Of a stretch of DNA of 64,000 nt, positions 44,746 through 64,000 are shown piece by piece; positions within the stretch are counted from its first letter, which is position 1; the number at the start of each line of letters is the position of its first letter. The notes under the pieces were generated by a model. That model saw only the letters and a program-made list of their open reading frames with translations, ran no database searches and was not told the DNA's origin. Location: the NCBI RefSeq assembly GCF_026421305.1, contig NZ_JAPJBQ010000001.1, positions 186,001 to 250,000 of the forward strand, written 5' to 3'. The DNA comes from Dyella silvae. Its GTDB lineage: Bacteria; Pseudomonadota; Gammaproteobacteria; Xanthomonadales; Rhodanobacteraceae. The position numbers were made by a program, and so were the translations under genes.

Positions 44746-44754
44746 GACACACTC

Positions 44755-44790: not shown

Positions 44791-44932
44791 AGAATTTGCG
44801 GGATGCAAGTGCCCCGGGGCGTCGGGTCGTTCTCTTCTGTGGGAGCGCCAGAAGCCAGTGCGACTTGAAACTCTCCCTCCGTGCCTTCACCCAACAGTTG
44901 CCACGCGCCCGTTTCCCCCAAGGACGATCCCC

Positions 44933-46792: not shown

Positions 46793-46951
46793 GCCGTGGA
46801 GTGCCAAGGCAGCGCGCGCGACGCGAAGCACATCTGCTGTCGCACCGGGCATGCGCCTCCGGCGCTCCTACAACGGTTTGAGCTTTCCTTGCCTCGTGCT
46901 TCACGGGGTTCGCGGCAGCATCACGCCTCCTTCCGTTACCGGAGCAGCGTG

Positions 46952-47254
46952 ATGCCGACAGCAAAAGCCCTGGCACGTGCGCGAAAGGACATGCGTGAAG
47001 GCAAGTCGGCCAGTACGCAGGCCGGCGAATTCGTGCGCGAGGAAATCGATCGCATGGGCGAGGGCGGGCATCACGCGCACTCGATCAAACAGGCGATTGC
47101 CATCGGTCTGGCCGAGGCACGCGAGGCGGGCATCGACGTGCCGGCCCAAAAGAGTGCAACGTCCAAGAAGACGGCAGGTGCCAGCACTGCCAGCCGAGCC
47201 GCGGGCGCCAAGCGGGCTGCGCGTCAACGCGCGATGAGATCGCGCGAGCGTTGA
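46952..47254 (+). CDS. DUF6496 family protein
   Basis: 100 aa. The first 65 residues (KALARARKDMREGKSASTQAGEFVREEIDRM and IKQAIAIGLAEAREAG in parts) match DUF6496, a small conserved family. The tail is Lys/Ala/Arg rich (TSKKTAGAS, GAKRAARQR), like a nucleic-acid-binding extension. GGAG lies 7 bases before the ATG. Function unknown; DNA association is a guess from charge. Confidence 0.78.
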   Translation: MPTAKALARARKDMREGKSASTQAGEFVREEIDRMGEGGHHAHSIKQAIAIGLAEAREAGIDVPAQKSATSKKTAGASTASRAAGAKRAARQRAMRSRER

Positions 47255-47295
47255 GCTCAGCAGTCGTCAGAATCTCTACGCGACTTCGTCATCGC

Positions 47296-47423
47296 CTCAT
47301 CGTCATCCCAGCGAGGCGCTTTTCAACAGCCGAAGGCTGGTCAAGCTGGGATCCAGCGACTTTCGACTTCACCTAGCGCTTAAAGGCACTGGATCCCAGC
47401 TTTCGCTGGGATGACGGTGAGGT
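47296..47423. repeat. Paired inverted tails of the dispersed repeat
   Basis: Two nested perfect inverted repeats: CGTCATCCCAGCG (47301-47313) with CGCTGGGATGACG (47404-47416), and CTGGGATCCAG (47346-47356) with CTGGATCCCAG (47389-47399). The sequence matches the last segment of the repeat units near 22.8 and 39.7 kb. It lies between convergent genes. Confidence 0.8.
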
Positions 47424-47520
47424 ATGGGTGACGGTGCGGCACGAATCCCGATGTGGTGCGGAAGCGAAGACTTCGAGCAGCCTCTCGGATATCACGACAT
47501 GCGAACGTCCGAAGGCGACG

Positions 47521-49185: not shown

Positions 49186-49249
49186 GTGGTGGACTCAAAA
49201 CAAAAAGTAGTAAAAGCGGCGATGCGGGGGTAGCACCCGCACCGGCAAA

Positions 49250-51091
49250 TCAACGGCGGATATCGATGCCGCCCCAGTCCTCAACCCCGCCGGTCGGCAC
49301 ATGGCCGTCGCGGCAGGCAGGCGCCACGGCATCGAACCGGTACAGCCGCCAGTCGCGGCCGCTGGTGACACCCATGTCCTTGGTGGCGGCAGGATCGATA
49401 CACGGTGGCGTCACATCGGCGAGCACCAGCACCCAGCGCTGCTCAGGGGCTTCTTTCTGCCAGAGGATCGCGTCGCTCAGCTGGGTGTGCCACGGCGTGA
49501 CAAAACCGAAGTCGGTGAGCTTGCGCGTGAACACCGGCGGAAGTTCTTCCTTCCACGCCACCAGGGCCAGTTCGGCTTGGGGGCCGATGGTCTGCTCCAC
49601 GCGTGCGGCCAGCGCCGCCGGCGAACTCGCGCGTGCCAGCATCGGCGCAATGCCGAGTCCCCATATCAGCCACACGCCGGCAAGACCGGCGAGCATCGCC
49701 AACCCAGCGCGACGCAAACGAAACACCAGTGCAGCGCACAGCAGCCACGCACCCATGGCGATAAACATGCTCCACAGCCACGCGGCCTGGTCACCCAGCT
49801 GGCGTGCCGCAACGAAACGCTCGGCAGCTGGCGGGTGGGCGATCCACGCGGCAGCACCCGCGCCCAGCGTGGCGACACCGAGCACCAGCAAAAAGCCGAT
49901 GGCCGTCCACTGCGCCCAACGCCGCTGCATGATGTTTTCAAGGAACGGCGCTGCGCTCAGCGCCAGCAGCGGCAACGCCGGCATGATGTACACGTCACGC
50001 TTGGCGCGGGTCAGGCTGAAAAACACGATCAGCATCACCACCCACGCCAACGGCAGCAGCAGGCGTGCATCGCGCGAGCGCAGCCGCTCCCACCATGCGG
50101 GCAGCAGGCCTGGCACGGCGAGCGTAAGCGGCAGCCACGACGTGAAGATCACTTCGAGGTAGAACCACGGCGGCTGAATGCTGTTCCACGGATGGACGTA
50201 GCGATTCACCGTCTGGTTGAAAAAGATGTCATGCACATACGCGCGCGCAGTCTGGCTGTCGTGCGTATGCACGTAGAGCAACAGTGGCACCAGCCACAGC
50301 GCGATGGCGGCGGCGAAGGCGGCGATACCGCCCAGCCAGTGCAGCGGACGGAATGCTATGGGCGACAAACCATGCCACGCCTGATGGCGTGCCACCAGCC
50401 ACGGCACCAGCATGAGAAATGCCAAAACGCCCACGCCTTTGGTGATCACACCCAGTCCCGCTGCGAAACAGCCGAACCAGAACGCTCGCCAATCCGGCCC
50501 CAACAGGAAGTGGCGCAACAGGCCCACGTTCGCTGCGGTGAGAAAGAACGTCACCGTGGGGTCGATCTGCCCGCGCTTGGCCTGAAACACAAACTGGATG
50601 GTGCACAGCAGGGCGCCTCCCGCCCACAGACCCACGCGATGCCCCCACAGGCGCCGCGCAAGGTCGTAGATCAGCCACAGCGTGCCGATGGAAGCGAGCA
50701 GCGACGGCAGCAGGAAGGCGACCCACCAATGGCCGGTAACCACATAGGACAAGGCCTGCAGCGCCATGAAGGTGGGCGGCTTGTCTGAGTACCAGTCGGT
50801 GCCGCGATGCGGAATCAGCCAGTTGCCCGACTCCACCATCTGGCGAGCCACCAGCGCGAAGCGTGGCTCGTCCGACGGGGTGGGGCCGCGCATGCCGATA
50901 CCGGCCGCGAGCACCAGCAAGGCGCCCAGCATCAGCCACCAGCGCTGCAGGCGCTCCCGTGGCGACAGCGGTGCTGTGGCGGCGGGTCCACCCGCGCCGC
51001 CGCGGGCATCGTCAGGGCGATAAGCATCCATCCCGCTGACATCGGCGTGGTTCGACGCGATGTCGCGCGGCTTCCTGCGGTGTTCACTCAT
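49250..51091 (-). CDS. ArnT-like membrane glycosyltransferase (family 39/83), paralogue
   Basis: 613 aa, about twelve membrane helices. Conserved GT-C loop: MRGPTPSDEPRFALVARQMVESG in part, then GTDWYSDKPPTFMALQ. It resembles its downstream neighbour in layout and probably arose by duplication. The ATG shares its A with the stop of the GT9 gene (TAATG), so translation is coupled; 64 bp separate it from the second ArnT-like gene. Likely acts at the periplasmic face on lipopolysaccharide using a polyprenyl-linked sugar. Confidence 0.85.
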   Translation of the reverse strand: MSEHRRKPRDIASNHADVSGMDAYRPDDARGGAGGPAATAPLSPRERLQRWWLMLGALLVLAAGIGMRGPTPSDEPRFALVARQMVESGNWLIPHRGTDWYSDKPPTFMALQALSYVVTGHWWVAFLLPSLLASIGTLWLIYDLARRLWGHRVGLWAGGALLCTIQFVFQAKRGQIDPTVTFFLTAANVGLLRHFLLGPDWRAFWFGCFAAGLGVITKGVGVLAFLMLVPWLVARHQAWHGLSPIAFRPLHWLGGIAAFAAAIALWLVPLLLYVHTHDSQTARAYVHDIFFNQTVNRYVHPWNSIQPPWFYLEVIFTSWLPLTLAVPGLLPAWWERLRSRDARLLLPLAWVVMLIVFFSLTRAKRDVYIMPALPLLALSAAPFLENIMQRRWAQWTAIGFLLVLGVATLGAGAAAWIAHPPAAERFVAARQLGDQAAWLWSMFIAMGAWLLCAALVFRLRRAGLAMLAGLAGVWLIWGLGIAPMLARASSPAALAARVEQTIGPQAELALVAWKEELPPVFTRKLTDFGFVTPWHTQLSDAILWQKEAPEQRWVLVLADVTPPCIDPAATKDMGVTSGRDWRLYRFDAVAPACRDGHVPTGGVEDWGGIDIRR

Positions 51092-52257
51092 TACATCCGA
51101 ACCTGCTGCTCAAGCGTAGGAGGATTTTGCCAGGGCACGCCTGCGGGTGCCTTATGCTCGAGCAGCTGCGCATAGTTGGCGACGATACGGCTGGCCACCT
51201 CCTGCGCGGTCAGTCCCTTGGTCACCAACGCACAACTGCCCATGCCATAGGGCTCATACACCGTGGCGTCTGTCACGGAGAACATGCCGACGGTGGGCAC
51301 TTTGGAAGCCACCGCGAGATGCATGACGCCGCAATCGGCCGTAATCATCAGGTCCATGCCCGCCATGACCGCGCCCATCCGGCGGATATCCGTCGAATAA
51401 TAGCCTGGCCACTCGGCGCCAAACATGGAGTGCCCATGCATCGGGACCACTTCGATGAGACGGGCCTGGGGGCACTGCGCCCGGAACGTGTCGAGAAATT
51501 CGCGCCACCATTCCGAGGGATAGCGCTTGGCGCGCGTGGCGTTGCCAAAGATGCCCACCACCAGCGGCATCGATGTTTCCGTTGGCACGTCCAGCAGTTC
51601 GTGGATGACCTGACGCCCCTGCGCGAGCTCCACATCGGTCAGCCGGATATCCAGCATAGGGTACTGCTGATCGTCGACGTGTTCCGGCGACGGCACCCAG
51701 CGCACCAGATTCACTGGCCGATGAGCCATATGACGCAGCGCTGCGTCTTCTGGTACAGCATGGGTCAAGCCTGAGCCGGCCCACTTGTCGTCGAAGCCGA
51801 GCTTATAGGTGCCGTTGAGCGCACGCGTCAGCGCGCGGCTGAAACCCGAGCCGATGCACGGATCCACAATAAGGTCATAGCGCGTCTTGCGCACTTTGCT
51901 CAGCAGGCGCAGAAACGACCACGGATGCTTGAAGCCACGCTTGGGCAGGCAATAGATGTTCTTCACGCTGAAGAAGGTGGAGAACACTTCTTTGCCGATA
52001 TCGCCCTCGGCGATGATGTCGATCTCCGCGCCCTTATATAGGCGCTCCAGCTCCGTGATAAGCGGCGTAATCAAAAGCATGTTGCCCAGCCGATGATTTG
52101 GCCGGCAAACGAGGATGCGAAAAATTCCCTTTCGCGGAAGCGGCTCCTGCCTGGAATGCGCAATAGATGGGTTCAAGCGACACCGGTGGTAAGTGTGGGT
52201 TGGAAAAGGTCGATGGGTAATGCCACGGTGTGGGGGGCAGGGCCGTGCGGAGCGCAC
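51091..52257 (-). CDS. Glycosyltransferase family 9 (heptosyltransferase-like)
   Basis: 388 aa as drawn; the true start is uncertain because the first 35 residues are not conserved and a TTG near 52180 could serve. The GT9 fold is shown by ILVCRPNHRLGNMLLITPLI, DLIVDPCIGSGFS, LVVGIFGNATRAKRYP and the donor-site motif ADCGVMHLAVASKVPTVGMF. Such enzymes add heptose or related sugars to the lipopolysaccharide core in the cytoplasm. First gene of the operon with two ArnT-like transferases. Confidence 0.85.
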   Translation of the reverse strand: MRSARPCPPHRGITHRPFPTHTYHRCRLNPSIAHSRQEPLPRKGIFRILVCRPNHRLGNMLLITPLITELERLYKGAEIDIIAEGDIGKEVFSTFFSVKNIYCLPKRGFKHPWSFLRLLSKVRKTRYDLIVDPCIGSGFSRALTRALNGTYKLGFDDKWAGSGLTHAVPEDAALRHMAHRPVNLVRWVPSPEHVDDQQYPMLDIRLTDVELAQGRQVIHELLDVPTETSMPLVVGIFGNATRAKRYPSEWWREFLDTFRAQCPQARLIEVVPMHGHSMFGAEWPGYYSTDIRRMGAVMAGMDLMITADCGVMHLAVASKVPTVGMFSVTDATVYEPYGMGSCALVTKGLTAQEVASRIVANYAQLLEHKAPAGVPWQNPPTLEQQVRM

Positions 52258-52989
52258 GTGGGGATAGGGTGGTTTGTCCGCGTCATCGCAGTCGCCTCGT
52301 CAAGACCGCGAGCGGCACATCGACGTTCGCGGCGAAACGTCGAACGGGCGCGGCGGCCGCGCGTTGACGCGGGCAGACAACTATTCTGGGAGAGGGCCGG
52401 GGCCCGGTCGTGATGGGTCGCTCGTATCGGCGGTGGGACGTAAGCGAACACGCCACCGTCGCCGGGCTGCCGAGGGCAGATTGTGTCGAGCGAGGAAGCC
52501 ATCGGTGCGCCGTAAGAGCGGGAACCGGGCTAAGGTACGGCAAATTCGTGGGGTTGATCCAAGTCCTTGATTTATATTTGTTGTCAGCGGTTTGGTCGTG
52601 GTGCTTTTGCTGCGGGGTGCCGCGATTTCTTGCGGCGTTGTGATGCTGCGCTGATCTATGGGGCGCGATGCGTTTTGGGCTCCTGGACGTCTGGTTGGTG
52701 ATCTCCCCCGCCAGAGCAGCGCAGTTGTTGTGAAGCACGCTAGGCCGTGCCTACAGCAATTCCCGCGAGCGCCTACGCCTCAACACAGGTCACCGTAGTT
52801 CTACGGTTGTGGTGGTGCTGCCTATCATCGACATTTCCCAAGCGCATGGTGATTGCAATCGCTCGATCGCATCGAGCCGGCAATCACATCGACTCGCACG
52901 AAACACCTGTTCCGCTGGCCGCTCACGAATTCATGCGCATGGCAGCCCTGGCGGGCACCGGTGAAGCCAACCATCTCAGGAGTGAGAGC
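52258..52989. other. Gene-poor 730-bp stretch upstream of the GT9 operon
   Basis: No open frame here looks like a real protein on either strand; the longest ones are Arg/Pro-rich shadows. It must contain the divergent promoters of the minus-strand glycosyltransferase operon and the plus-strand membrane protein, but I see no element I can name with confidence. Confidence 0.5.
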
Positions 52990-53517
52990 ATGAGCCAGCT
53001 GACCGCCAAGATTAAGCATGAATTTCTGGAGTTGTTGCCGCCGACGATCTTTTTCTTTGTGGCCTTGCATATCGTGGCTATCGTTCGCGCGCTGATGACG
53101 AAAGGCACGGGAATTGCGCTGCCTACGACGGCCGCTGTCACCATTGCCGCGCTTATCCTTGGCAAGTCGGTGCTGTTGGCCAACATGCTGCCATTCATCA
53201 ACCGGTTTCCCGAAAAACCGCTGATATGGAACGCGGCGTGGAAAACGGTGATCTACACCATCGTGGCAACCATCATTCATTTCCTTGAAAAGCTCTACGA
53301 CTTCTGGAAGGAAACGCACGACATCGGTGCGGCCTATCGCGAGTTGCTCGCCAACATCAATTGGGCACACTTTGTGGCCATCCAGATCCTGCTGTTGGTG
53401 CTGATCGGCAACTACTGTGTTTTCGAAGAGTTCGCGCGTGCCGTCGGTCGCGACAAGATCAGGCGCATGTTTTTCGGCCCCTTGCCCGCGCATATGCCGC
53501 AGCCTGCTACTGAGTAA
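52990..53517 (+). CDS. Small membrane protein of unknown function
   Basis: 175 aa from ATG 52990, chosen because AGGAG (52979-52983) sits 6 bases upstream; the open frame begins 240 bases earlier without coding character. Four membrane helices (LPPTIFFFVALHIVAIVRALM, ALPTTAAVTIAALILGKSV, AAWKTVIYTIVATIIHF, WAHFVAIQILLLVLIGNY each shown in part), with a charged segment KLYDFWKETHDIG between helices 3 and 4. No named domain recognised. It stands alone upstream of the lanthipeptide locus. Confidence 0.75.
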   Translation: MSQLTAKIKHEFLELLPPTIFFFVALHIVAIVRALMTKGTGIALPTTAAVTIAALILGKSVLLANMLPFINRFPEKPLIWNAAWKTVIYTIVATIIHFLEKLYDFWKETHDIGAAYRELLANINWAHFVAIQILLLVLIGNYCVFEEFARAVGRDKIRRMFFGPLPAHMPQPATE

Positions 53518-54299
53518 AGCGATCCTTGGCACGCGGCACCAGGTTGCGTGCATGATCTTATTGCCGATCAAGACGCGTCTCACCGGCGCTGCCGCATGGA
53601 AGTGCCGCGCGTCCTGGCCTGTTCTTCTGGCTAGCTGAGAGCTGTCGCGTTCTTCGCGTTTTGACACATGTGAAGAGCGCCACATGCAACGGTGAAGCAG
53701 GGCGCGTTGTGCAAAAGCTTGCGACGCTGCTGCTCAATCATCGCGATGAACTGTGATGTAACGCACAACACTCATGTGCGCGAGCTCTCAATGTCTTGGC
53801 CTTCCAGGATTCTGACGATGAGTTGCAGGCAACCCTTGCGTCGCGCTCGTTCTCCAGAGGTCACGAGCTCTTCACGCCAGTGGATGTTTGACTAGAAGCT
53901 TGGGCATACGGGGCGCGCCTGCCGAGGCGTGCCAGGGACCAGGTCACAACAGTGACCCAGACGCATGCAAGGGGGCACAACCGGATGGATCAGGCAGTAC
54001 GGAGCAGGGATGCTGTGGAAGCGAAGCGTCATCGCTCACCCCGGTCTTTGTGCAGCGCTTTCGATGCCTCTCCACGACATCGGCCATGTGTGCGCTTCGC
54101 GAATGCTTCGCGGGCCCGTACGGCAACAGAAAGCCGTCCCATTCTGCTCCCCATGTTTTCGCGCCGTCGTGAGATGAGCGCCAGCTCCACGTGAGCATCC
54201 CACCATCACAGACTTCATCGCAGCAGCGCTCACTGCGATAAAGGCACGTGCGATTTTCATGAGCGCTTAGTCCAAACCACCATCTAAGGAGTGCAACAT
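53518..54299. other. Gene-poor 780-bp stretch before the lanthipeptide precursor
   Basis: No convincing protein-coding frame on either strand. Composition is less GC-biased than the flanking genes. It must hold the promoter of the lanthipeptide operon. One clear palindrome is listed separately. No additional Cys-rich precursor peptide was found here. Confidence 0.5.
53942..53957. promoter_or_regulatory. Palindrome GGTCAC-AACA-GTGACC upstream of the lanthipeptide operon
   Basis: Perfect 6-bp arms around a 4-bp centre, about 340 bp before the precursor start. It could be a regulator binding site; no regulator gene is linked, so this is tentative. Confidence 0.35.
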
Positions 54300-54488
54300 A
54301 TGCAAACCGATAACATCGTGGAAGGTTGGCTGAACGGTTCTGACAGCGTCAACGGCTACGCCAATCCGGCGGGCCCGCTCTACACCGAAGGTCATGCAGT
54401 GACGATCGCTGCTATTACCAATACCGATATCGCCCTGGTATCGCACTGCAGTTCCTGTACGGCCTCCCGGCCGGGTCTCTGCTGCTGA
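54300..54488 (+). CDS. lanA: Class II lanthipeptide precursor with NPAG-type leader
   Basis: 62 aa. ATG 54300 is the start: AAGGAG (54286-54291) is 8 bases upstream, whereas the in-frame GTG at 54291 overlaps that site. The leader has a Trp (EGWLNG) and ANPAGPLYTEG, matching the W...NPAG/HPAG pattern of haloduracin and lichenicidin alpha leaders. The C-terminus is the likely core: Cys50, Cys53, Cys61 and Cys62 with Ser/Thr at 42, 48, 51, 52, 54 and 56, ending RPGLCC, enough for up to four thioether rings. No GG or GA cleavage site is seen; the nearest small-residue pair is Ala37-Ala38. A LanM gene follows 92 bases after the stop. Confidence 0.85.
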   Translation: MQTDNIVEGWLNGSDSVNGYANPAGPLYTEGHAVTIAAITNTDIALVSHCSSCTASRPGLCC

Positions 54489-54505
54489 TAGCAGGCCTTC
54501 ATAGC

Positions 54506-54533
54506 AGCCGTGGCTTTGGCCACGGCTGTTTTT
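54506..54533 (+). terminator. Terminator-like attenuator between lanA and lanM
   Basis: AGCCGTGGC (54506-54514), loop TTTG, GCCACGGCT (54519-54527), then G and five T residues. A perfect 9-bp stem and U run make a strong intrinsic terminator 17 bases after the precursor stop. It would yield abundant precursor mRNA with partial read-through to lanM, the usual stoichiometry for ribosomal peptides. Confidence 0.9.
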
Positions 54534-54580
54534 ATCGCGCCTTGCGCACAAGTCTTTCCCTTGCTTGACAGGTGTTGACC

Positions 54581-57451
54581 ATGGGTGACGTGCCTTCGAT
54601 TGAAACGTTTGCTGTCATCATCGACTTCCTGACGGCTGATATCAGGCGGTCGGTGGTCAACAGGCTCTTGTCCGTTCCTGATCTGAGCGCCGATGAAGCG
54701 GCCGTTCTCGCCAGGGAAGCCGACAGGGCATTGCGCGACAGTGGCGAGCGAAAGCTCAATCGCGTACTTCTGCTCGAGCTGCATGCAGCCAAGCTCTCCG
54801 GGCAACTCACTGCACCGGATGAGAGCGGAAAGTTCGCTCAGTTTCTGGATCTCGCAACACGCGAGGACTTCAAGGCGGCGCTAAGGCGGCGCTACCCGGT
54901 GCTCCAGGATCGCCTGAACGCGACACTCGGACAACAGGGCGCCGCCATCGTCGACCTGGCCGAGCGCATCGCATCCGATCGCCATCAGCTTTCCAGCTTG
55001 CTGGGTGCGCCAGCCGGCGTGCTTCGTGCCGTCAGGCTTGGCGAAGGCGATGTGCACGATGGCGGCCATACCGTGGCGCAGATTGAGTTCAGCGGCGGCA
55101 CGGTCATGTACAAGCCGCGCTCTCTGCGAATTGACGCAGCGCTCGCCGGTTTTCTGGACGATCTTTTTCAGGGGCAAGAGAACCACATCAAGGTTCCCGA
55201 GGTGCTTGATCGAGGCCCGTACGGCTGGACCGCATTTGCGGAACACCGGTACTGCACCAGCCAGAATGAACTGGCGACCTTTTATCGCAACATCGGCCAT
55301 TGGCTCGCCGTCATGCGGCTCCTGGGTGGCACTGATATCCATCATGAAAACCTGATCGCGTCCGGTCCGGTGCCTTATGTGGTGGACGTGGAAAGTCTTT
55401 TCGTGCCCGATCCGTTGCTAGCGCCTTCTGACCTCGGGCAAGCCGTGGATCTCGCCGAGGCAATGATTCGCTCGTCAGTGCTCCGCACGGGCCTGGTGCC
55501 GTTCCGCGCACCGGTGCTCGGGCTCGATGGCGTGGATATTTCTGGCATCGGCGCGTTGCCGGGGCAGCAACCTAAGATTCGCGTTCCTGAAATCGTTCAG
55601 CACGGCACCACCGATGCCCATGTTGGGCTGGTGAGCGTGGATCTGGACATGGCGAAGAATCACCCCTGCGCCAATCCGGATATCTCCCACTTCTGGGCCG
55701 ACATCGTTGCGGGATTCAAAGAGCTCACCGGCCGATTCATGGCACTTCACGACGAAGGGGCTCTTGCGTCAAAACTCACCGTGTTTCGTGGTTGCCGTAT
55801 CCGGCACATTCAACGGCCGACGCAAGTCTACGTTGAGGTCATGCGCATGCTATGGCACCCCGCGTCATTGCATGACGAACCCGCCGCTATCGAGCGAGCG
55901 CGCGATCTCCTGACGCAGCAAGCGGCCGCCGGCAAAATCGCATCGTCCGAGCGGGCGGTGATCGATGACGAAATCGATGACATGCGTTACGGCGATGTCC
56001 CGGTATTTGCCAACGAGCTTGACCAGAACCAGCTCGATGAGGTCTTCAACGGTTGGCAGGCGATGCGCGTCGACCTTGAAGAGCTGACCATACGTGGCGC
56101 GCTCGTCACGCTGCATCTCAACGCACGACTGAACGACGACAAGCGCGCCCCCTACGACCTCAAGGCCAGGCATCCCAGTGCAAGCAACCTCGATCGCCGC
56201 CGCCGCTCCATGGCGGCGCTCACGCTGAAAGAGTTGCTTGAGCTTTCCGTGCGGGGAAGCGATGGAACGATGACCTGGATAAGCCCCGTTCTCGGGCGTA
56301 GCGGATGGGCGATGCGCAGCCTTCAGTCCGACCTTTACGTTGGTTTATGTGGTGTTGCCATTGCATTGGCAGGTTATCTCGCGGAGATGCGGCAGGGCAG
56401 GGCCGACGAAGTCGAAGGCGTAGAGCAGGCCCTGGATGGCGTGCTCCAGGTGCTGCGCAACACCGAACGGGTACGTGAAGCCGAGGCGGTAGGCGCGTTC
56501 ATCGGTCTGGGCTCGCAGATCATTGCCTGGCTCACGCTGCACGGCATGCAGCCTCAATCGGACTTTCTCGCCATGGCGAGAAAGCAGGGCGAATCCCTGG
56601 AACAATGGGATTTCGAGAACGAGCGTGTATTCGACATCCTGGAAGGTGTGTCTGGCGCCATCGTGCCGTTGCTCCAGCTTGCAGAGGCGACGGGCGAATC
56701 ACGCTGGCTCGATCTGGCGGCCAAAGCGGGCCGGCGGCTGGAACAGGCGGCGATCATCGACTGGCGCGGCGCGCGATGGCCTGCCTCGATTTTCGATGAG
56801 CCCATCGGCGGATTTGCTCATGGCGCCACTGGCACTGGCTGGGCGCTGACCCGTCTTGGATTGAGCGAGGCGGGCAGTGAAGACGATCGCAAGCGATGGC
56901 TTGCGCTGGGTGATCGCGCATTCGATTTCGAAGAATCGCTTTACGACGCCAGTGCCGGCAACTGGATCGATGTGCGCAAGCCGGAGAGCAAGGACTTCCC
57001 CAATACCTGGTGTCACGGCAGCGTCGGCATCGGTCTGGCGGCGTGCGATCTCTATGCGCGAACAGGTGACGCGCGACACCTGAGCACGTTGCGCCGTGCC
57101 GTGCTGGCAGCACGTAGTGGCGGCTGGGGATACAGTCACACGTTGTGCCATGGCGACCTCAGCATGTGGGAGCTGATGATGCGTGCCAGCAAACTGGTGC
57201 CGGATCTCGTGCCGCCTGAAGCGATGCCGGGAGCCGCGGTGATCCTGTCCAGCATCGAAGAGCATGGCATTGTCGGTGGCCTCGCGCGCGATGCCTTCTC
57301 GCCGGGCCTGATGAGCGGCATCTCCGGATCGATCCACCAGCTCATTCGCATGCATCCGGAGTGTGCTATCCCGTCGCCCTTGCTGATGGAGTGCCGCACA
57401 GGCGAGTACGTCAGAAGCCAATCCTTTGAACAAGAACTCCTGACGGCTTAG
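54581..57451 (+). CDS. lanM: Class II lanthipeptide synthetase LanM
   Basis: 956 aa from ATG 54581 (GTG 54572 is the alternative). The N-terminal two-thirds is the kinase-like dehydratase: VMYKPRSL with the ATP-binding Lys near 177, GGTDIHHENLI near 250 and VVDVESLF near 267. It phosphorylates and eliminates Ser/Thr of the precursor. The C-terminal LanC-like cyclase has GFAHGATGTGWAL (about 745) and the zinc ligands in WCHGSVGIG (Cys about 811) and LCHGDLSMWE (Cys-His about 856-857), all present. The zinc set is the common Cys-Cys-His, not CCG-type Cys-Cys-Cys. The exporter gene follows after 26 bases. Length is within the family range. Confidence 0.95.
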   Translation: MGDVPSIETFAVIIDFLTADIRRSVVNRLLSVPDLSADEAAVLAREADRALRDSGERKLNRVLLLELHAAKLSGQLTAPDESGKFAQFLDLATREDFKAALRRRYPVLQDRLNATLGQQGAAIVDLAERIASDRHQLSSLLGAPAGVLRAVRLGEGDVHDGGHTVAQIEFSGGTVMYKPRSLRIDAALAGFLDDLFQGQENHIKVPEVLDRGPYGWTAFAEHRYCTSQNELATFYRNIGHWLAVMRLLGGTDIHHENLIASGPVPYVVDVESLFVPDPLLAPSDLGQAVDLAEAMIRSSVLRTGLVPFRAPVLGLDGVDISGIGALPGQQPKIRVPEIVQHGTTDAHVGLVSVDLDMAKNHPCANPDISHFWADIVAGFKELTGRFMALHDEGALASKLTVFRGCRIRHIQRPTQVYVEVMRMLWHPASLHDEPAAIERARDLLTQQAAAGKIASSERAVIDDEIDDMRYGDVPVFANELDQNQLDEVFNGWQAMRVDLEELTIRGALVTLHLNARLNDDKRAPYDLKARHPSASNLDRRRRSMAALTLKELLELSVRGSDGTMTWISPVLGRSGWAMRSLQSDLYVGLCGVAIALAGYLAEMRQGRADEVEGVEQALDGVLQVLRNTERVREAEAVGAFIGLGSQIIAWLTLHGMQPQSDFLAMARKQGESLEQWDFENERVFDILEGVSGAIVPLLQLAEATGESRWLDLAAKAGRRLEQAAIIDWRGARWPASIFDEPIGGFAHGATGTGWALTRLGLSEAGSEDDRKRWLALGDRAFDFEESLYDASAGNWIDVRKPESKDFPNTWCHGSVGIGLAACDLYARTGDARHLSTLRRAVLAARSGGWGYSHTLCHGDLSMWELMMRASKLVPDLVPPEAMPGAAVILSSIEEHGIVGGLARDAFSPGLMSGISGSIHQLIRMHPECAIPSPLLMECRTGEYVRSQSFEQELLTA

Positions 57452-57477
57452 TCAAAGGCAAAGGGAGTGGGCGGCCG

Positions 57478-59136
57478 ATGATCCTGAAGCGCTTTCTACG
57501 TCGATTCTACCGGCCGCTCGCTGGCGCAGCGCTGCTGTCGTGTGCCAGCGCGGCATCCACGGTTGCGCTGCTCTCGCATATCAATCGACTTGCATCCGAG
57601 GGGATCCATGGCCAGGCGATGCGCCCGCTTTTGACGGGCGTCCTGTGGCTGGTGGCCTTGTTTGCGACCAATGCCTTATCGCAGGTGCTGCTCGCCCGGC
57701 TGGGCGGCAACCTGGTGGCGCAGCTTCGCATGGAGTTATCGAAGCGCTTTATTGAGCTTGAGTACGAGAAACTGGCGGACCAGAAGCATTCCGTATTCGG
57801 TTCGCTCATCGAGGACGTTGCAAACATAGCGCCCATGGCGCTGGTGGCCCCTCTGCTGGCGTACAACCTGCTGCTTGCTTCGTTGTATGCGGGTTACCTC
57901 GCCACCGTGTCGCTGGCGCTACTGGGCATTCTCGCCATCTTCCTGTGTGCCACGTTGGCCGCGTCGTTACGGCTTGAACGCGTCCTGCGGGAGAAGCTCG
58001 ACGAACTTCGTCAGGCTAACGAGAAGGTGTTCGAGTACTTCCGCTTTATCAGCGATGGCAAGAAGGAGATGACGCTGAATGCACAGCGCGCCGTGCATTT
58101 CACCCAGGAGCTGATGAATCCCGCCATTCTTCGCGCGCGAGGCATCATGGTGCGGGCCTACGCCGGTCTTGGTCTTAACGAGGCCTGGTCGATGGCCGTT
58201 ATGTACGGCGCGATCTTTCTTATCGTCTACCTGGGGTACGCCTTTTTGGCGTTGACGCAGGACACGATCATCCACTTCGTGATTGGTGCGGTGTTTCTCA
58301 GCGGCCCGGTGAACTTTATTGTGAGCGCGGGCAGGCAGGTTGCCGTAGGGGCTGCCAGCTTGCGTCACCTCGAGCGCGTGGGCATGAATCTGGGCGTCGA
58401 GCTCAACGAAGATCAGCAGCGCCAGACCGAACGGCATTCGTTCGGCAGGTGGAGCCAGATAAGAATGGAGGGGGTTTGCTACAGCTATCCGGGCAACGCC
58501 ACTTCGAAACCCATCGTCGGCCCGATCGATCTCACGGTTTCCCGTGGCGAGATGCTGTTCATTGTCGGTGGAAACGGTAGCGGTAAGTCGACGTTGTTGC
58601 TTCTGTTGAGCTCGCTGATAGCGCCAGACAAAGGGCGCATCTACATCGATGACTTGCCGGTCGATGCGGACATCCGTTCGTACCGCGAACGGTTCACCGG
58701 GGTGTTTGGCGACTTCTTTCTATTCCCTCATGTCCTCGGCGCCACGGGAAGTCCGCTTTCGGATGAGCGCATCGAACACCTGCTTGATGTGCTTGACCTT
58801 GGCACGCAGGTGCAAACGGCGAAAGGTGAGCTATCCCGCCTGACCTTGTCCACGGGGCAGAGGAAGCGGCTCGCCTTGCTCCAGTGTTATGCGGAGGATC
58901 GGGATATCTTCTTTTTCGATGAGTGGGCCGCGGATCAGGATATTCATTTCCGGGACTACTTCTATTGCACGCTCTTGCCGGCGCTGAAAGCCAACGGCAA
59001 AACCATCATCGCGATCAGCCATGATGACCGTTACTTCGCTATGGCCGATCGCGTGATTGCGCTCGACTCCGGATCCATCGTTTCAGACACGCGGCCAGGG
59101 ACGCAGTCTCAATCGCGCAAAAGCGAAGCCGTTTAG
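57478..59136 (+). CDS. SyrD/PvdE-type cyclic-peptide ABC exporter without C39 peptidase
   Basis: 552 aa. Six membrane helices (about 10-300), then a nucleotide-binding domain with Walker A GGNGSGKST (about 364-372), an atypical signature LSTGQRKRLAL and Walker B IFFFDEWAADQD; the DEWAADQD string is characteristic of the SyrD/PvdE/YojI cyclic-peptide exporter family rather than of LanT. The protein begins directly with the first membrane helix, so the N-terminal C39 leader protease found in LanT is missing. It follows lanM by 26 bases and should export the finished peptide. Leader removal must be done elsewhere. Confidence 0.9.
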   Translation: MILKRFLRRFYRPLAGAALLSCASAASTVALLSHINRLASEGIHGQAMRPLLTGVLWLVALFATNALSQVLLARLGGNLVAQLRMELSKRFIELEYEKLADQKHSVFGSLIEDVANIAPMALVAPLLAYNLLLASLYAGYLATVSLALLGILAIFLCATLAASLRLERVLREKLDELRQANEKVFEYFRFISDGKKEMTLNAQRAVHFTQELMNPAILRARGIMVRAYAGLGLNEAWSMAVMYGAIFLIVYLGYAFLALTQDTIIHFVIGAVFLSGPVNFIVSAGRQVAVGAASLRHLERVGMNLGVELNEDQQRQTERHSFGRWSQIRMEGVCYSYPGNATSKPIVGPIDLTVSRGEMLFIVGGNGSGKSTLLLLLSSLIAPDKGRIYIDDLPVDADIRSYRERFTGVFGDFFLFPHVLGATGSPLSDERIEHLLDVLDLGTQVQTAKGELSRLTLSTGQRKRLALLQCYAEDRDIFFFDEWAADQDIHFRDYFYCTLLPALKANGKTIIAISHDDRYFAMADRVIALDSGSIVSDTRPGTQSQSRKSEAV

Positions 59137-59180
59137 CCGGGTTGTCATCCGGCGAAAACCAGGCGCGAGTGTCATCGCAG

Positions 59181-60302
59181 TCAGGTGATGTCCATCGATT
59201 GCAAGCCGCTGACGACGGCATCGATATCGTCCCGCGTCGTGCCGCGCCCAAGGCTGAAGCGAATGGCGCCCATGCCAACGCGTTCGCTCACACCCATGGC
59301 CGCCAGCACCGGCGATAACTCGACGGAGCCCGCATGACAGGCGGAGCCGGTAGAGGCAGCGACACCTTCGAGCCTCGCAAGTATGTCGGCGCCAATCTGG
59401 CCAACGAATCCAACGTTGAGTGTATTGGGTAGCCGCTGCGTGGCGTGACCGTTGAGCACCACCCGGTCGCCAAACTGACTTTGCAGCGACTGCCAGAAAT
59501 GATCGCGCAGCGTGCGAATAGTTGCGACCTGGCCGACGTCCTGCGCCAATGCGCATGCCTCGCCCAGCGCTACGGTGAGCAGCGCGCTTTCAGTGCCAGC
59601 GCGTAGTCCGTGTTCATGTCCGGCGCCGTGGATCAGTGGCTCCAGCGTCGTGCCGCGACGGACATACAGCGCCCCAACGCCCTTGGGCGCATACAGTTTG
59701 TGCCCCGCCACGCTGAGCAGGTCGACGCCGAGTTTCTCGACGTGTGTCGCCACTTTGCCCACGGACTGTGCGGCATCGGTGTGAAAGCGGATGCCGCGCT
59801 CACGCGCGACGGCGGCAATAGCCTCAATGGGCTGAAGCGTGCCGGTCTCATTGTTCGCGTGCATGATGCTGATGAGCACCGTGCGCGGCGTGATGGCCCG
59901 ACGCACCGCTTCGGGATCGACCTGTCCCGACGAATCCACAGGCAGATAGGTGACTGAAGCCCCGAGGCGTTCCAGGAACGCGAGAGGCTTCAGCACGGAA
60001 GGGTGCTCCGTTACCTGCGTAATGATGTGATCGCCTTTATCCCGCAACGCGAAGAAACTGCCCTTGAGGGCCAGGTTGTTCGCTTCGCTGCCGCCGCTGG
60101 TAAAGACCACTTCGTCCGGCTGAGCGCCGAGCAGCGAGGCGACCTGTTGGCGTGCACGGTCCAACGCCGCCTTCGCTGGACGGCTGGCCCAATGCCCACT
60201 CGACGGATTGCCGAACGCGTCAGGCAGATAAGGCCGCATCGCAGCTTGCACCGCAGGATCGATCGGCGTGCTGGCGTTGTAGTCCAGATAGACGTGCTTC
60301 AT
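59181..60302 (-). CDS. Cysteine desulfurase (NifS/IscS class)
   Basis: 373 aa PLP enzyme. Motifs: YLDYNASTPIDP, SGGSEANN, HANNETGTLQPIE, HTDAAQSVGK, the PLP-Lys in SVAGHKLYAPKG, and the mobile loop ASTGSACHAGS with the catalytic Cys. It transfers sulfur from cysteine as a persulfide. Shorter than IscS (about 404 aa) and not accompanied by iscR, iscU or sufBCD, so not the main Fe-S enzyme by context. It is convergent with the lanthipeptide exporter gene (44-bp gap), and any role with that pathway is speculative. Confidence 0.9.
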   Translation of the reverse strand: MKHVYLDYNASTPIDPAVQAAMRPYLPDAFGNPSSGHWASRPAKAALDRARQQVASLLGAQPDEVVFTSGGSEANNLALKGSFFALRDKGDHIITQVTEHPSVLKPLAFLERLGASVTYLPVDSSGQVDPEAVRRAITPRTVLISIMHANNETGTLQPIEAIAAVARERGIRFHTDAAQSVGKVATHVEKLGVDLLSVAGHKLYAPKGVGALYVRRGTTLEPLIHGAGHEHGLRAGTESALLTVALGEACALAQDVGQVATIRTLRDHFWQSLQSQFGDRVVLNGHATQRLPNTLNVGFVGQIGADILARLEGVAASTGSACHAGSVELSPVLAAMGVSERVGMGAIRFSLGRGTTRDDIDAVVSGLQSMDIT

Positions 60303-60363
60303 CTCAGAACCCCAGCTCTTTGTACCTATGCTTGATCAAACCCCGTGATGCGAGAGCGCGAAC

Positions 60364-60522
60364 TCAGGCCGATACGGAGCGGTGGCTTCTCTTGGCGACA
60401 GCAACGATAACGTCGAAAAGGAAGGTAAGACCACCCATAGCGTCGATCGCATAAGCAAATGGATAGCGGCGAGCTTCGAGGTTGCTGTCGAGGTCGGGTA
60501 AGGTCGCCGATGCTCGATGTCG
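60364..60522 (-). pseudogene. Possible C-terminal remnant of a small membrane or lipoprotein gene
   Basis: In the 720-bp gap after the desulfurase one minus-strand frame reads like a protein end (NLEARRYPFAYAIDAMGG, then a hydrophobic LTFLFDVIVAVAKRS) before a stop, but it has no start codon; a stop closes the frame at 60523-60525, while an overlapping frame upstream is open. This looks like a frameshifted remnant. The rest of the gap to 61024 shows no gene. Confidence 0.3.
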
Positions 60523-61024
60523 CTAACGAAGCCGGCCTTGTGGTTAGCGTGCTTTGCCGCCCGCTCGCCATCTCCCTCCACGCATAACTGAAAGTCTCCC
60601 GGCAAATCAGCGCCAGCGAGAACCACGGTGCGTAAGCGCTAAATCATCGAAAGCCTGTTTGGCGCAGATTCCTGCGTTCTTAGCCCGAGCATTCAACGCT
60701 TGCGGATCACCGCGTCGATTATTGACCTGGGGAAACGATGAAATCGCGAAGAGGCAGGTAATGGCCGGAGCGCCGCGGGACTAGCATGCCAGCCGTCTCT
60801 CGAAAGGAATTCGGCATGCGCCGCACGGCCATTCTGAGCATCGTGTTGACGCTGATCACATGAAGATCGATAGGGGCAATCCTCTTCGCACTGTGCAAGA
60901 TCGTATGAAGTTGCGCTGTGGCGTGCGAGCCCTGTTTTGAAGGCACTTGACGCAATCATGGGATATGTCAATTTGGTGACGGTTGCGTAAACGCGATCTG
61001 ATCGTTCACAGGAAGTGGAGCCAT

Positions 61025-62671
61025 ATGGATATGGGGCACGATGGAAGGCCGTCTTTAAAAGTTCAGCAAGCGCAGGCCATCGCCGTGCAGGCCCTGGGCT
61101 TGGCTGCAAGAGGATTTTTAGCTGAAGCGGAAAGCGAATTGCGGCGGGCGCTTGTCATGCTTCCCGGCGACCCTGCCATCAGCTTCAATCTCGCGCGCGT
61201 GTTGATGACCAGTCACCGCCCGGGTGAAGCGCTTCATCTGGTGAATCAAACACTCGCTGGCGAAGCGAATCGGTCAGCCAATCTTCTACTTCTTCGCGCG
61301 CAAATCCTGTTGGCCATGGCGCGGCATGCAGAAGCGATCATCGCGTTTAAAGAAGCCATAGAAGCCGACCCACATAACGGCCTCGCAGAACTGGGTCTCG
61401 CCACCGCCTTGGGAGAGTCCAGACAGCCGCTCGCAACCGCGGAAGCCGCACAGCGCGCCATTCACAAAGGTGCGGATCGGCCAAGCGCGCGATACATTCT
61501 CGGGCGCTCTCTCAACGAGTGCGGTCGATTCCAGGAAGCCGAATCGGAGCTTCGTCGTGCGGTGCAATTGAACCCAGACCATGAGCCGTCGCAGGTCATG
61601 CTCGCCGAACTGATCTGGATGCAAACCAGTGATGTGACATTGGCAACTCACGAGCTTGACCGCAGCCTGCAAAGACAGCCACACGCCACCGGCCTTCGCG
61701 TTACGAAAGCGAAACTTCTCGAGAGCGCTGGCCACACGGCAGCTGCTGTGGCTGAACTGGAAGCAGGGCTGGAACGCGATCCCAACAACCTGCAGTTGCG
61801 ATTGGCAGCAGCTCAGGCGCTGGTCGCGGAGCAGCCTCTTCGCGCGCTCTTTCATGCCGAATGCGCTTTTCGTCTTGCACCAAGAGATCTGGCCGTCGTG
61901 GCTATCTACGGAGACACCCTTTTTGCCGCCGGGCGTGTCGCCGATGCCGAAAAGGTCGCAATGCACGGCCTGCAGATTCATCCGAACAACAACCATTCCA
62001 TCGCCCTCCTGGGGAACGTATGGCGATGGAAAGGGGATTCGCGTTATCAGGAGTTGTTCGACTACAACGCCTTAGTAAGGGCTTCGCCGCTGGAAACGCC
62101 CGCCGGGTGGTCGACGCTTGCCGCTTACCTCGCGGATCTCGCTCGGAGCCTTCATGAGCTTCATCAGCTCAATGCGCATCCCGTGAATCAGACGCTACGC
62201 CGGGGTTCTCAGATTGGCATCGAATTAGAAGCGTTGAAGGATTCCGCGCTTCATGCATTCCCTCAAGCCATCGATGGGCTTATTCGTAAATACATGGCTG
62301 CCATTGGGCATGGCATGGATGTATTCCGTCGCCGTAACACGATGCGCTACAAGCTCAATGGCATGTGGACCGTTCGATTGCGGCCTCAAGGTCATCACGT
62401 CAACCATTTTCATGGCCAGGGATGGTTGTCTTCCGTTTGCTACATCGAACTGCCGGAGACGTTGGGCAAGCAAGGCGGTGAGGGGTGGCTGAAATTAGGT
62501 GAACCCTTGCTTGGGCCCTCCGATCGCAAACTCGACCCGGAATTTTTTCTTAAACCCGAGCCGGGACTTCTGGCGCTGTTTCCTTCCTGGATGTGGCACG
62601 GCACCGTTCCATTCTCTGGTAGCGAGAAGGATCGGCGCCTGACCATTGCGTTTGACGTCGTTCCTGCCTGA
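61025..62671 (+). CDS. TPR protein with C-terminal 2OG-Fe(II) oxygenase domain
   Basis: 548 aa from ATG 61025 (GGAG four bases upstream; ATG 61031 possible; a TTG at 60983 extends the frame). Residues about 15-340 are tetratricopeptide-like repeats (AEAESELRRALVMLPGDP, FQEAESELRRAVQLNPDH, AAVAELEAGLERDPNN). Residues about 345-548 form a 2-oxoglutarate/Fe(II) oxygenase of the PF13759 type: iron ligand region HHVNHFHGQGWLSSVCYIELPE, second His in FPSWMWHGTVPF and the 2OG-binding Arg in DRRLTIAFDV. It should hydroxylate a protein or peptide bound by the repeats. It lies 1.9 kb past the lanthipeptide exporter on the same strand; a tailoring role is only an inference. Confidence 0.88.
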   Translation: MDMGHDGRPSLKVQQAQAIAVQALGLAARGFLAEAESELRRALVMLPGDPAISFNLARVLMTSHRPGEALHLVNQTLAGEANRSANLLLLRAQILLAMARHAEAIIAFKEAIEADPHNGLAELGLATALGESRQPLATAEAAQRAIHKGADRPSARYILGRSLNECGRFQEAESELRRAVQLNPDHEPSQVMLAELIWMQTSDVTLATHELDRSLQRQPHATGLRVTKAKLLESAGHTAAAVAELEAGLERDPNNLQLRLAAAQALVAEQPLRALFHAECAFRLAPRDLAVVAIYGDTLFAAGRVADAEKVAMHGLQIHPNNNHSIALLGNVWRWKGDSRYQELFDYNALVRASPLETPAGWSTLAAYLADLARSLHELHQLNAHPVNQTLRRGSQIGIELEALKDSALHAFPQAIDGLIRKYMAAIGHGMDVFRRRNTMRYKLNGMWTVRLRPQGHHVNHFHGQGWLSSVCYIELPETLGKQGGEGWLKLGEPLLGPSDRKLDPEFFLKPEPGLLALFPSWMWHGTVPFSGSEKDRRLTIAFDVVPA

Positions 62672-62702
62672 TCGATCGGCTCAAACACGGCGTAAAGGAA
62701 CG

Positions 62703-62870
62703 GTGCCGGAAAATGCGCACCATACGATTCAAATCGGCCTGGCGCTCGAAGGTCGTTTTCATATCCAGACTGGGGCGCGGTCAGCGTCGAGAGCGACGGC
62801 TGATGCGGTGGTGACCCCGGGCGTCGAGCTCATACGTCGTGAATGGGCGCCTGTCCAACGACGAAGATAA
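62703..62870 (+). pseudogene. Remnant of an AraC-type regulator cupin domain
   Basis: A 55-residue stretch (ENAHHTIQIGLALEGRFHI, then TADAVVTPGVEL) resembles the N-terminal cupin of AraC regulators (HAHH...I.IALEG...VVTP.V). It ends quickly and has no helix-turn-helix part, so it appears to be a truncated fragment. The open frame starts inside the upstream oxygenase gene. Confidence 0.4.
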
Positions 62871-63012
62871 TCATGACCATTGCGCACTCTGCCGGGCCAA
62901 GTTCTCGGATCTTGGTCGTCCCGGTAAGCTAAACATCGGGTTCTGTACGTTGGATGGCCGGCACTGGGTCTGCTAACAGTGCGTGGACGATTTCAAGGCT
63001 CGCTTGCAGTGA
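62839..63012 (+). pseudogene. Small zinc-binding (CxxC) protein gene broken by an in-frame TAA
   Basis: Starting near GTG 62839 the frame reads NDEDNHDHCALCRAKFSD, then GFCTLDGRHWVC, a TAA at 62974-62976, and QCVDDFKARLQ before a TGA at 63010-63012. This matches a widespread small family with the pattern DHCxxCWAKF...G....HWVCxxCFxDF. The second CxxC is split by the stop, probably by one base change from a codon such as GAA or CAA. It therefore looks like a recently inactivated gene, unless the stop is a sequencing error. Confidence 0.6.
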
Positions 63013-63051
63013 TTATTGATCGACGACCCGAATATGCGGACTCCTTATACT

Positions 63052-63075
63052 GTCCGCTTCCGACCCGAAGCAGAC
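63052..63075. repeat. Short hairpin repeat TCCGCTTCCGACCC, copy 1
   Basis: GTCCGCTTC pairs with GAAGCAGAC (one mismatch) around CGACCC. The same motif recurs at 63401-63420 and 63819-63842. It lies between a broken gene and a small hypothetical gene. Confidence 0.75.
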
Positions 63076-63080
63076 CTTAA

Positions 63081-63398
63081 ATGGAACCGTGTAGAGGGAC
63101 AATCTTGGCAGAGTTCGTGAAAGTCAAAGTCGAATGGTCGGGAGAGAAGTTGGCGAGACTGCCAACTTTGGGAACCTACTCAACGGTCGCTCGATTTGCA
63201 GATGACCACGATTGGCCTAACGGCGATACGTGGAGCATCGTTCTGCTTCTACCTTCGGTGGACAAAATGCGAGGCGGACCTTTTGAGGCGGAAGCACGGT
63301 TTCTGGCCCCCGACGCCCCAATAGGCCGCCTAAGCCATGGGTCCGTATTCGAGCTGTTTGAAGGCCGGGTCAGGACGGCTACTGTACTGGTTTTATGA
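63081..63398 (+). CDS. Small hypothetical protein
   Basis: 105 aa from ATG 63081; a TTG at 63105 is a plausible later start because the conserved-looking part begins there (AEFVKVKVEWSGEKLARLP). Contains TYSTVARFADDHDWPNGDTWSIVL and FEAEARFLAPDAPIGRL in part, suggesting a small beta-rich soluble domain. No family recognised. It is bounded on both sides by the short hairpin repeat, so it forms a one-gene module. Codon use is less GC-biased than in the core of the window. Confidence 0.6.
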   Translation: MEPCRGTILAEFVKVKVEWSGEKLARLPTLGTYSTVARFADDHDWPNGDTWSIVLLLPSVDKMRGGPFEAEARFLAPDAPIGRLSHGSVFELFEGRVRTATVLVL

Positions 63399-63400
63399 CT

Positions 63401-63420
63401 GCTTCCGACCCGGAGCGGAC
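63401..63420. repeat. Short hairpin repeat TTCCGACCC, copy 2
   Basis: GCTTCCGACCCGGAGCGGAC: the left arm TGCTTCCG pairs imperfectly with CGGAGCGGA. Second member of the family, three bases after the small hypothetical gene's stop. Confidence 0.7.
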
Positions 63421-63486
63421 GTTGCGGCTTTGGTGGATTTGTCCAAAGTAAGGGCATGGGGGAAACATGATCGGCGCCACATCGCT

Positions 63487-63774
63487 ATGAATACTTGTCC
63501 GCACTGTGGGGCTCGCGCGAGCGCGATTCGCCTACTCTCAGCTACGAGGAGGTGGCCTTACCGGTGCAGTGGCTGCGGAAAGCAGTCGCGCTTGCTTGCG
63601 GAACAAAACACACTTGCCGTGTTGGTCGTTGTCGCTGGCGTGATTGTATGTGCCTCAGTCATTTACCCAACCTGGGGTTTTGCAGTTGCGCTCGCTGCTT
63701 TCTTGGCTGTGTACGCTGTCCTCGGCATCGTTATGTTGTTTTATATGCGTCTCGAAAAGTTGCCGCTGACGTAG
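63487..63774 (+). CDS. Small zinc-ribbon membrane protein
   Basis: 95 aa from ATG 63487. An N-terminal zinc ribbon (MNTCPHCGARASA and YRCSGCGKQ, two CxxC pairs) is followed by two membrane helices (TLAVLVVVAGVIVCASVIYP and FAVALAAFLAVYAVLGIVML in part). Such small proteins are common and mostly unnamed. It lies between hairpin copies 2 and 3, again a one-gene module. Confidence 0.7.
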   Translation: MNTCPHCGARASAIRLLSATRRWPYRCSGCGKQSRLLAEQNTLAVLVVVAGVIVCASVIYPTWGFAVALAAFLAVYAVLGIVMLFYMRLEKLPLT

Positions 63775-63818
63775 CCGGCGAAAGAGCGTAGATATCGTTC
63801 GCGGCGCAAAATTGAAAC

Positions 63819-63842
63819 GTCCGCTTCCGACCCATAGCGGAC
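63819..63842. repeat. Short hairpin repeat TCCGCTTCCGACCC, copy 3
   Basis: GTCCGCT pairs perfectly with AGCGGAC around TCCGACCCAT. Third member of the family, 44 bases after the zinc-ribbon gene and 53 bases before the next start. Confidence 0.78.
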
Positions 63843-63895
63843 GCTTTCAGTGGGTTGGCCGCTAAGGCACTATTGGAGTCAGGGGCTAGTTGGGG

Positions 63896-64000
63896 ATGGG
63901 TATGGAGAAGCTATTCAAGGCTGTCGCCTTTGGGGCATGCGCGTTTGGCTTGATGGCTGTGTTTGTGCTTCTCGTAGTTTTCATCAAGTGCATGGTTCTG
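63896..64000 (+). CDS. Membrane protein, N-terminal fragment (cut by window end)
   Basis: An open frame from ATG 63896 (or 63902) runs off the right edge. The visible 35 residues form a short charged start (MGMEKLFK) and one strongly hydrophobic helix (LMAVFVLLVVFIKCMVL). It follows hairpin copy 3, so it may be the next one-gene module. Nothing more can be said. Confidence 0.45.
   Translation, partial: MGMEKLFKAVAFGACAFGLMAVFVLLVVFIKCMVL

Follow-up and report, generated by a model that had tools for sequence, protein, structure and literature searches.

Lanthipeptides with a DUF6229 precursor are known substrates of class II LanM synthetases. In work that refactored RiPP clusters at high throughput, the DUF6229 peptide from Dyella sp. 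333MFSha, a strain elsewhere classed among the Luteibacter mycovicinus strains (PMC11165876), was made in E. coli with its LanM, and the name rhodanocins was proposed (PMC9576775). According to that paper, NMR placed methyllanthionines at residues 6-11 and 12-23, a lanthionine at 8-14 and Dhb at 18; the MIC against Klebsiella pneumoniae was 126 µM; the C39 protease LahT150 failed to cut the peptide; the authors recognize orthologues in several Rhodanobacteraceae genera; and one DUF6229 class II lanthipeptide adjoins the lysobactin genes (PMC9576775). A Lysobacter preprint reports 72 class II clusters; of the 27 unique precursors, 21 bear the DUF6229 annotation, and the precursors fall into six families (PMC11451712). 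A first-pass annotation of the present locus suggested that it could be an undescribed subtype; that the group itself has gone undescribed is not supported, given a LanM substrate with solved rings (PMC9576775) and the many Lysobacter precursors (PMC11451712). In the literature found, one DUF6229 lanthipeptide has a solved structure, and the accessible parts of these sources give a leader protease or an exporter for none. Two further kinds of system bear on export, namely (i) class II clusters with a LanT/PCAT, a C39 peptidase-ABC transporter, and (ii) the exporters of the SyrD/PvdE type together with YojI, which may take part in the export of microcin J25 (PMC8277102).

Here, we analyzed a lanthipeptide locus in a stretch of 64,000 nucleotides from Dyella silvae (G000:C11:186001-250000), hereafter called the window. 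Its features are listed below.

54286..54291, + strand: AAGGAG, ribosome-binding-like, upstream of the precursor (sequence)
54300..54488, + strand: precursor ORF of 62 aa, from ATG at 54300 to TGA at 54488, DUF6229 (PF19740) (ORF list, Pfam)
54505..54533, + strand: RNA hairpin with TTTTT behind it, in the gap that separates precursor and lanM (sequence, folding, stem control)
54581..57451, + strand: LanM, class II lanthipeptide synthetase of 956 aa (TIGR03897, PF13575, PF05147, motifs)
57478..59136, + strand: ABC exporter of 552 aa with fused membrane and ATPase parts, without C39, YojI/SyrD-like (NCBIfam, Pfam, motifs)

The three reading frames are open and co-directional, and the hairpin separates the precursor from lanM, which bears out the single-strand block of precursor, attenuator, LanM and exporter claimed in the first-pass annotation. 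The precursor matches PF19740 with an E value of 1.2e-22 and 80 bits (cut-off 25) and adjoins the LanM gene, the combination by which a DUF6229 lanthipeptide is defined. Its leader contains NPAGPLYTEG, and its C-terminal core, DIALVSHCSSCTASRPGLCC, comprises residues 43-62. Of the 14 related loci, 12 have GGAG directly before the precursor start, a comparison in which the rows for L044 and L047 are possibly anchored on a false upstream start. The synthetase matches TIGR03897 with an E value of 5.6e-163 and 544 bits (cut-off 304) and has both the DUF4135 dehydratase (PF13575) and the LanC-like cyclase (PF05147) over cut-off, as expected for the bifunctional LanM of a class II system; its motifs GGFAHG, WCHG and CHGD are intact, and we take WCHG and CHG to be the zinc site of the cyclase. 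It is the sole PF13575 match in the host genome, has an alternative start at GTG 54572, and a sequence search for solved LanM relatives returned LicM2 (6st5) and CylM (5dzt) as the nearest and no others. Across the DUF6229 regions examined, a LanM adjoins the precursor in 54 of 54, with the LanM of L081 cut by the contig end. The LanM of L063:9582-12508 lies in two frames (9582-11018 and 11015-12508), which is unique among the 54 regions. The class II lanthipeptide locus of the window is real and intact, and from its sequence the cluster is probably functional.

Like rhodanocin (LanII of Dyella sp. 333MFSha), the window combines a DUF6229 precursor and a class II LanM with the core pattern S/T6-x-C8-xx-C11-T12-x-S14 (rhodanocin residues as given in the accessible text of PMC9576775). 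Numbered so that its first Cys is position 8, the window core contains S6, C8, S9, S10, C11, T12, S14, C19 and C20. Five of the seven modified positions of rhodanocin proper (T6, C8, C11, T12, S14, T18 and C23, with three Cys) are kept as S6, C8, C11, T12 and S14, and two are absent: Leu takes position 18, and the four-Cys core stops at C19-C20. In rhodanocin, by contrast, the three rings use all of the Cys, with Dhb18 and C23 (PMC9576775). Because two rhodanocin positions are absent and the end carries two Cys, the window product should differ from rhodanocin. That the cluster simply makes rhodanocin, with the same product type and the same ring pattern, would agree with the DUF6229 precursor, with the (inferred) same bacterial family and the orthologues that the rhodanocin authors report from several of its genera (PMC9576775), and with the common positions 6, 8, 11, 12 and 14. 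We nevertheless regard this as quite improbable, given that the published peptide is modified at T18 and closes a ring to C23 (PMC9576775), against Leu18 and a four-Cys, C19-C20 core here, and given the position of the matching synthetases. The published rhodanocin numbering fits the cores of loci L078-L084 if the count starts at the residue following their GG, so the characterized rhodanocin probably belongs to that group; identity to the window LanM is 38% and 40% for two synthetases of these loci, and in the LanM tree the L078-L084 LanMs fall in the other of the main branches.

A published characterization of this exact cluster, which the first-pass annotation had named as a result that would tell against it, was not found in the literature searched, and the rhodanocin core pattern differs by its published residue positions. 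Searches of open-licence main texts with short core and leader strings returned no lanthipeptide paper, and the exporter-linked subgroup was not described among the matches listed from such texts; the accessible parts of PMC7268733, PMC8939145 and PMC10885120 held nothing decisive. The Lysobacter DUF6229 lanthipeptides (PMC11451712) and the lysobactin-adjacent one (PMC9576775) share the leader family and the LanM class with the window according to the parts of these papers available. Among the sampled Lysobacter loci, a CSSCSAS..CC core occurs only in Lysobacter antibioticus (L091), without the window-type exporter.

From the rhodanocin pattern, we infer rings at Ser6-Cys11, Cys8-Ser14 and Thr12-Cys19 or 20 for the window product, a transfer that rests on pattern matching to the published positions of the characterized rhodanocin precursor, WP_043693394.1. 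Since the core has four Cys, a fourth ring is allowed, and the extra C-terminal Cys is predicted to be (i) part of such a ring, with Ser9, which is invariant in all 14 exporter-linked cores, as the candidate partner, (ii) free or (iii) engaged in a disulfide. Among 30 distinct cores chosen for Cys or Pro at position 11, S/T6 and C11 occur together in 22, neither occurs in 8, and none is mixed. Such a co-loss is what a 6-11 ring predicts; the joint absence amounts to 2 independent losses on the LanM tree (sign test p 0.5), which are too few events for significance. In the actinobacterial cores of L132 and L134-L159 (CSSP..SWCC or SYCC), Cys11, replaced by Pro, and Ser/Thr6 are lost together, a naturally occurring variant of the core with three Cys. 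Two odd DUF6229 precursors (L065:9412-9609 and L082:9462-9719) end in CFG, following the pattern YGVLNTGxxRCDT...CFG, and adjoin a long-branch LanM; type II secretion-like genes follow the locus in L065.

We surveyed 233 genomes of the host's family, 42 of which have a DUF6229 match over the cut-off; the 53 regions fetched and the window gave 54 regions with 61 precursor ORFs, the below-cut-off match G083:C157 being left out. An exporter like that of the window (at least 680 bits) is adjacent in 14 of the 54 regions, and the other 40 have no ABC match above about 50 bits, so the DUF6229 family as such does not need this exporter. Other ABC exporters lie near the DUF6229 loci L052 and L060; their best model is MsbA, below cut-off, and they have no C39. 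A search for the exporter itself in the 233 genomes (E<=1e-40) gave matches in 29, and exporters of at least 60% identity in 14, exactly those genomes with the CSxCTASRPxxCC core and always adjacent to it; the next-best matches are 47-48% identical (3 genomes), and the rest are at 33% or below. Three exporter relatives at 40% came from a wider sample, 398 genomes of the order that overlap in part with the first set, and two more at 34-35% from 369 genomes of the class. The exporter matches in G100, G450 and G460 each have one in-frame TGA within the matched stretch. Named genomes were also searched with a LanM profile, and the best 80 of 178 loci were kept: 77 of those 80 have a DUF6229 precursor within the fetched stretch and 7 have the exporter adjacent, all of these 7 in Dyella or Luteibacter. 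The LanM-exporter pair, which the first-pass annotation had proposed to look for in related genomes, is thus conserved, in 14 of the 54 DUF6229 regions.

The exporter and the core travel together in further respects. The core [ST]xCS[SG]CTASRP[GV]xCC is present in 14/14 exporter-linked precursors and 0/47 others, and the exporter-linked core is conserved across three genus codes. The exporter lies 3' of lanM and co-directional with it in the window, L043, L046 and L047 and is divergent in the other ten loci, so that the link is kept despite a change of gene order (two orders). On a LanM tree of 112 rows, which left out 17 named loci as probable repeats, L063 and L081 (LanM <800 aa) and L120-L122 (no precursor), the exporter link requires one change. 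LanM and exporter identities are correlated (Mantel r 0.93, 0/5000 permutations), where relatedness alone would raise r. The wider core CSSC[TS]xS...CC is also present in Luteimonas, Lysobacter antibioticus, Corallococcus, Streptomyces and Kitasatospora, and on this sequence distribution the core therefore looks older than its link to the exporter.

The best NCBIfam model for the exporter is NF007813/PRK10522, which we take to be YojI, at 365.6 bits, below the cut-off of 604; against the cyclic peptide export model TIGR01194, which covers the SyrD/PvdE type, it scores 283.3 bits, narrowly under the cut-off of 286.2, and its nearest relative, L165, is over that cut-off with 316 bits. Its motifs are Walker A GGNGSGKS, LSTGQ and IFFFDEWAAD, and the DEWAADQD motif presumably links it to the SyrD/PvdE-YojI family. 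It resembles these transporters in being a full-length ABC exporter and in its best-scoring models, but differs from them in that it partners a lanthipeptide locus rather than an NRPS or a lasso peptide. Its non-lanthipeptide relatives (23 of 25 matches fetched) have an adenylation-domain motif in 18 of 23 contexts and a LanM or DUF6229 in 0 of 23, and the same adenylation motif occurs in 0/14 cluster regions, 0/40 other DUF6229 regions and 0/80 named loci; the cluster regions extend some 5-10 kb on each side, which leaves room for a more distant NRPS. Looser NRPS patterns fire in 19 of the 23 contexts but also in 3/14, 8/40 and 16/80 controls, and the adenylation motif alone is therefore the sound count. 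The NRPS of L166 is confirmed by Pfam matches to condensation, adenylation and carrier domains. In L165 and L166, an NRPS-plus-exporter stretch with an identical exporter occurs in genomes of different genera (g7 and g22), which points to recent transfer or contamination.

In a quick, midpoint-rooted exporter tree with long branches, the 14 lanthipeptide-linked exporters form one clade (SH-aLRT 100), and together with the NRPS-linked L165-L167 they form a group of 17 rows (SH-aLRT 97), which places them within an NRPS lineage; the next rows, L168-L170, carry NRPS motifs too. With one clade and NRPS-linked nearest relatives, a single recruitment of the exporter from an NRPS-type line is the simplest reading of the sequences. 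The earlier view of the exporter as being of the SyrD/cyclic-peptide, NRPS-associated kind is supported, as its nearest non-lanthipeptide relatives are NRPS-linked. The same lineage, and the absence of the exporter from 40 of 54 DUF6229 regions, could also mean that it serves another substrate, such as a drug or an NRPS product, and that adjacency arose by chance or shared mobility. This appears very unlikely: exporter and core coincide exactly in the survey (14 of 233 genomes), they are adjacent in two gene orders, LanM and exporter diverge in a correlated way, and all 14 cluster regions lack the adenylation motif within about 5-10 kb either side.

The claim that no C39 peptidase lies near the cluster held for window positions 44001-64000, where none was found in the exporter or elsewhere, so the locus is not a PCAT-type cluster. 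It shares a LanM-type synthetase with LanT/PCAT clusters and differs from them in having no C39 in the exporter or nearby and a precursor leader with TEG instead of GG. The further idea that the missing C39 is a swap special to this locus did not survive comparison: at E<=1, a C39 profile matched 0 of 134 DUF6229/LanM regions (54 including the window and 80 named, of which at least 17 repeat the same genomes) and 0 of 23 exporter contexts. The profile was built from two sequences and recovered all four control loci, two of which were those training sequences. The lack of a linked C39 is a family-wide state of DUF6229 loci. A C39-LanT encoded elsewhere was considered as the partner and dropped, with 0 of 61 over-cut-off DUF6229 hits having a C39 within 20 kb on the same contig (nearest 28 kb).

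Unlinked C39 matches are common: they occur in 41 of the 42 family genomes with DUF6229, 34 of which have a match in a frame <450 aa, and in 37 of 46 named relatives, counted without matching contigs to loci in a search that covered 50 of 61 intended loci. The host assembly has one C39 match, in a protein that stands alone about 190 kb from the cluster. This protein, L190 (G000:C11:50560-50958), has a signal-peptide-like start by eye. Among the 14 cluster genomes, 6, including that of the window, have no C39 in an open frame of at least 700 aa, and the other 8 have a long-frame C39 protein that is unlinked; a C39-LanT is accordingly not always co-conserved with the precursor, the outcome that the first-pass annotation had set against its own proposal. 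An unlinked long C39 protein could act in trans in those 8 genomes, and trans-processing by such a protein can be ruled out for no more than the other six.

Genes that accompany the cluster gave no further constant partner. Six flanking ORFs of the window had 0 peptidase matches, and in a search for a third conserved gene, such as a protease, the exporter was the sole neighbor family present in more than 3 of the 14 loci (crude gene calling). A TPR protein with a C-terminal 2OG-Fe(II) oxygenase domain (PF13759) is encoded near the cluster at window positions 60983-62668, with a TTG start in the ORF list, and is not recurrent across the 14 loci. A PF00144 serine hydrolase adjoins lanM in L039 and L040 (Luteibacter-type), stands farther off in L036, and also adjoins the NRPS-linked exporter at L166:1480-2925 (Pfam run on L039 and L166). 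It is a possible accessory or leader-processing enzyme.

The hairpin CAGCCGTGGC-TTTG-GCCACGGCTG has a perfect 10-bp stem (54505-54514 / 54519-54528) followed by TTTTT and folds at -38.5 kcal/mol with a z-score of -3.51, confirming a conserved hairpin with T5 where an attenuator had been claimed. Its stem is kept in 14/14 related loci, 13 of them perfect and L047 with one G-U; 100% of 140 alignment cells are paired (0/500 shuffles), and 3 pairs have changed on both sides (16/500 shuffles). The number of pair types is unremarkable (295/500 shuffles), and the changes mainly separate two lineages and thus represent few events. A perfect stem of at least 9 bp occurs in 13/14 of these loci, 12/47 other DUF6229 precursors and 13/1000 random stretches, and some hairpin-plus-T in 20/47 other precursors and 165/1000 random stretches. 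Five or more T's stand behind the conserved stem in 8/14 loci, so a terminator role is not general, and a partial terminator or mRNA-end stabilizer is likelier than a full stop. An Rfam scan of 52000-61000 gave no match, and a general terminator scan missed the hairpin and found terminator-like sites no more numerous than in shuffles.

On this comparative sequence evidence, the hairpin is more likely a leaky terminator/attenuator or mRNA-end stabilizer by which the precursor would be favored over LanM. The strong stem and T5 of the window would also suit an ordinary terminator, with lanM and the exporter under a promoter of their own. We consider that unlikely, because the gap between precursor and lanM is just 92 nt, several relatives have a weak T-run, and 0 sigma-70-like promoters were found in 54100-59400 where shuffles gave an expectation of 1.7, the last of these being weak evidence.

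The cluster occurs in 1 of 20 genomes of the host's genus, a patchy distribution attributable to transfer or loss. Such patchiness might be expected of a decaying cluster that makes nothing, which is extremely unlikely for a locus with three open frames, intact catalytic and ATPase motifs and a core conserved across three genus codes. Rather, we consider it likely that the three genes are a complete set for making a rhodanocin-like class II lanthipeptide with four Cys, with a once-recruited exporter of NRPS lineage and a leader protease outside the cluster. The biological role of such a cluster, from ring formation and exporter substrate to immunity, stoichiometry and leader removal, may be sketched as follows. 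The hairpin 3' of the precursor would lead to more precursor than LanM being made; LanM would dehydrate Ser/Thr of the core and close the thioether rings; the modified peptide would exit the cytoplasm via the adjacent exporter, which may also protect the producer; and the leader would be removed by a protease encoded outside the cluster.

A more specific version, which we put forward only tentatively, is a single-origin class II branch of Dyella-/Luteibacter-type bacteria with a four-Cys, probably four-ring product, in which the NRPS-derived, peptidase-free exporter both exports and protects; as it would have been taken over from NRPS pathways without a peptidase, export and leader removal would be uncoupled. 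That the product of this branch combines an interlocked C8-S14 ring with a CC terminus is, as part of the same joint reading, possible but somewhat doubtful.

The window cluster belongs to a distinct exporter-linked subgroup of an already characterized lanthipeptide family. What is new here is the exact exporter partnership, the NRPS-side origin of the exporter and the four-Cys core with its testable ring prediction. DUF6229 lanthipeptides are widespread, in Pseudomonadota, Myxococcota and Actinomycetota, and this subgroup supplies a candidate exporter for them that is clearly testable. The four-Cys core extends the one solved DUF6229 ring pattern, and the subgroup seems to be a case in which the pathway of a ribosomal peptide adopted an exporter from the non-ribosomal side.
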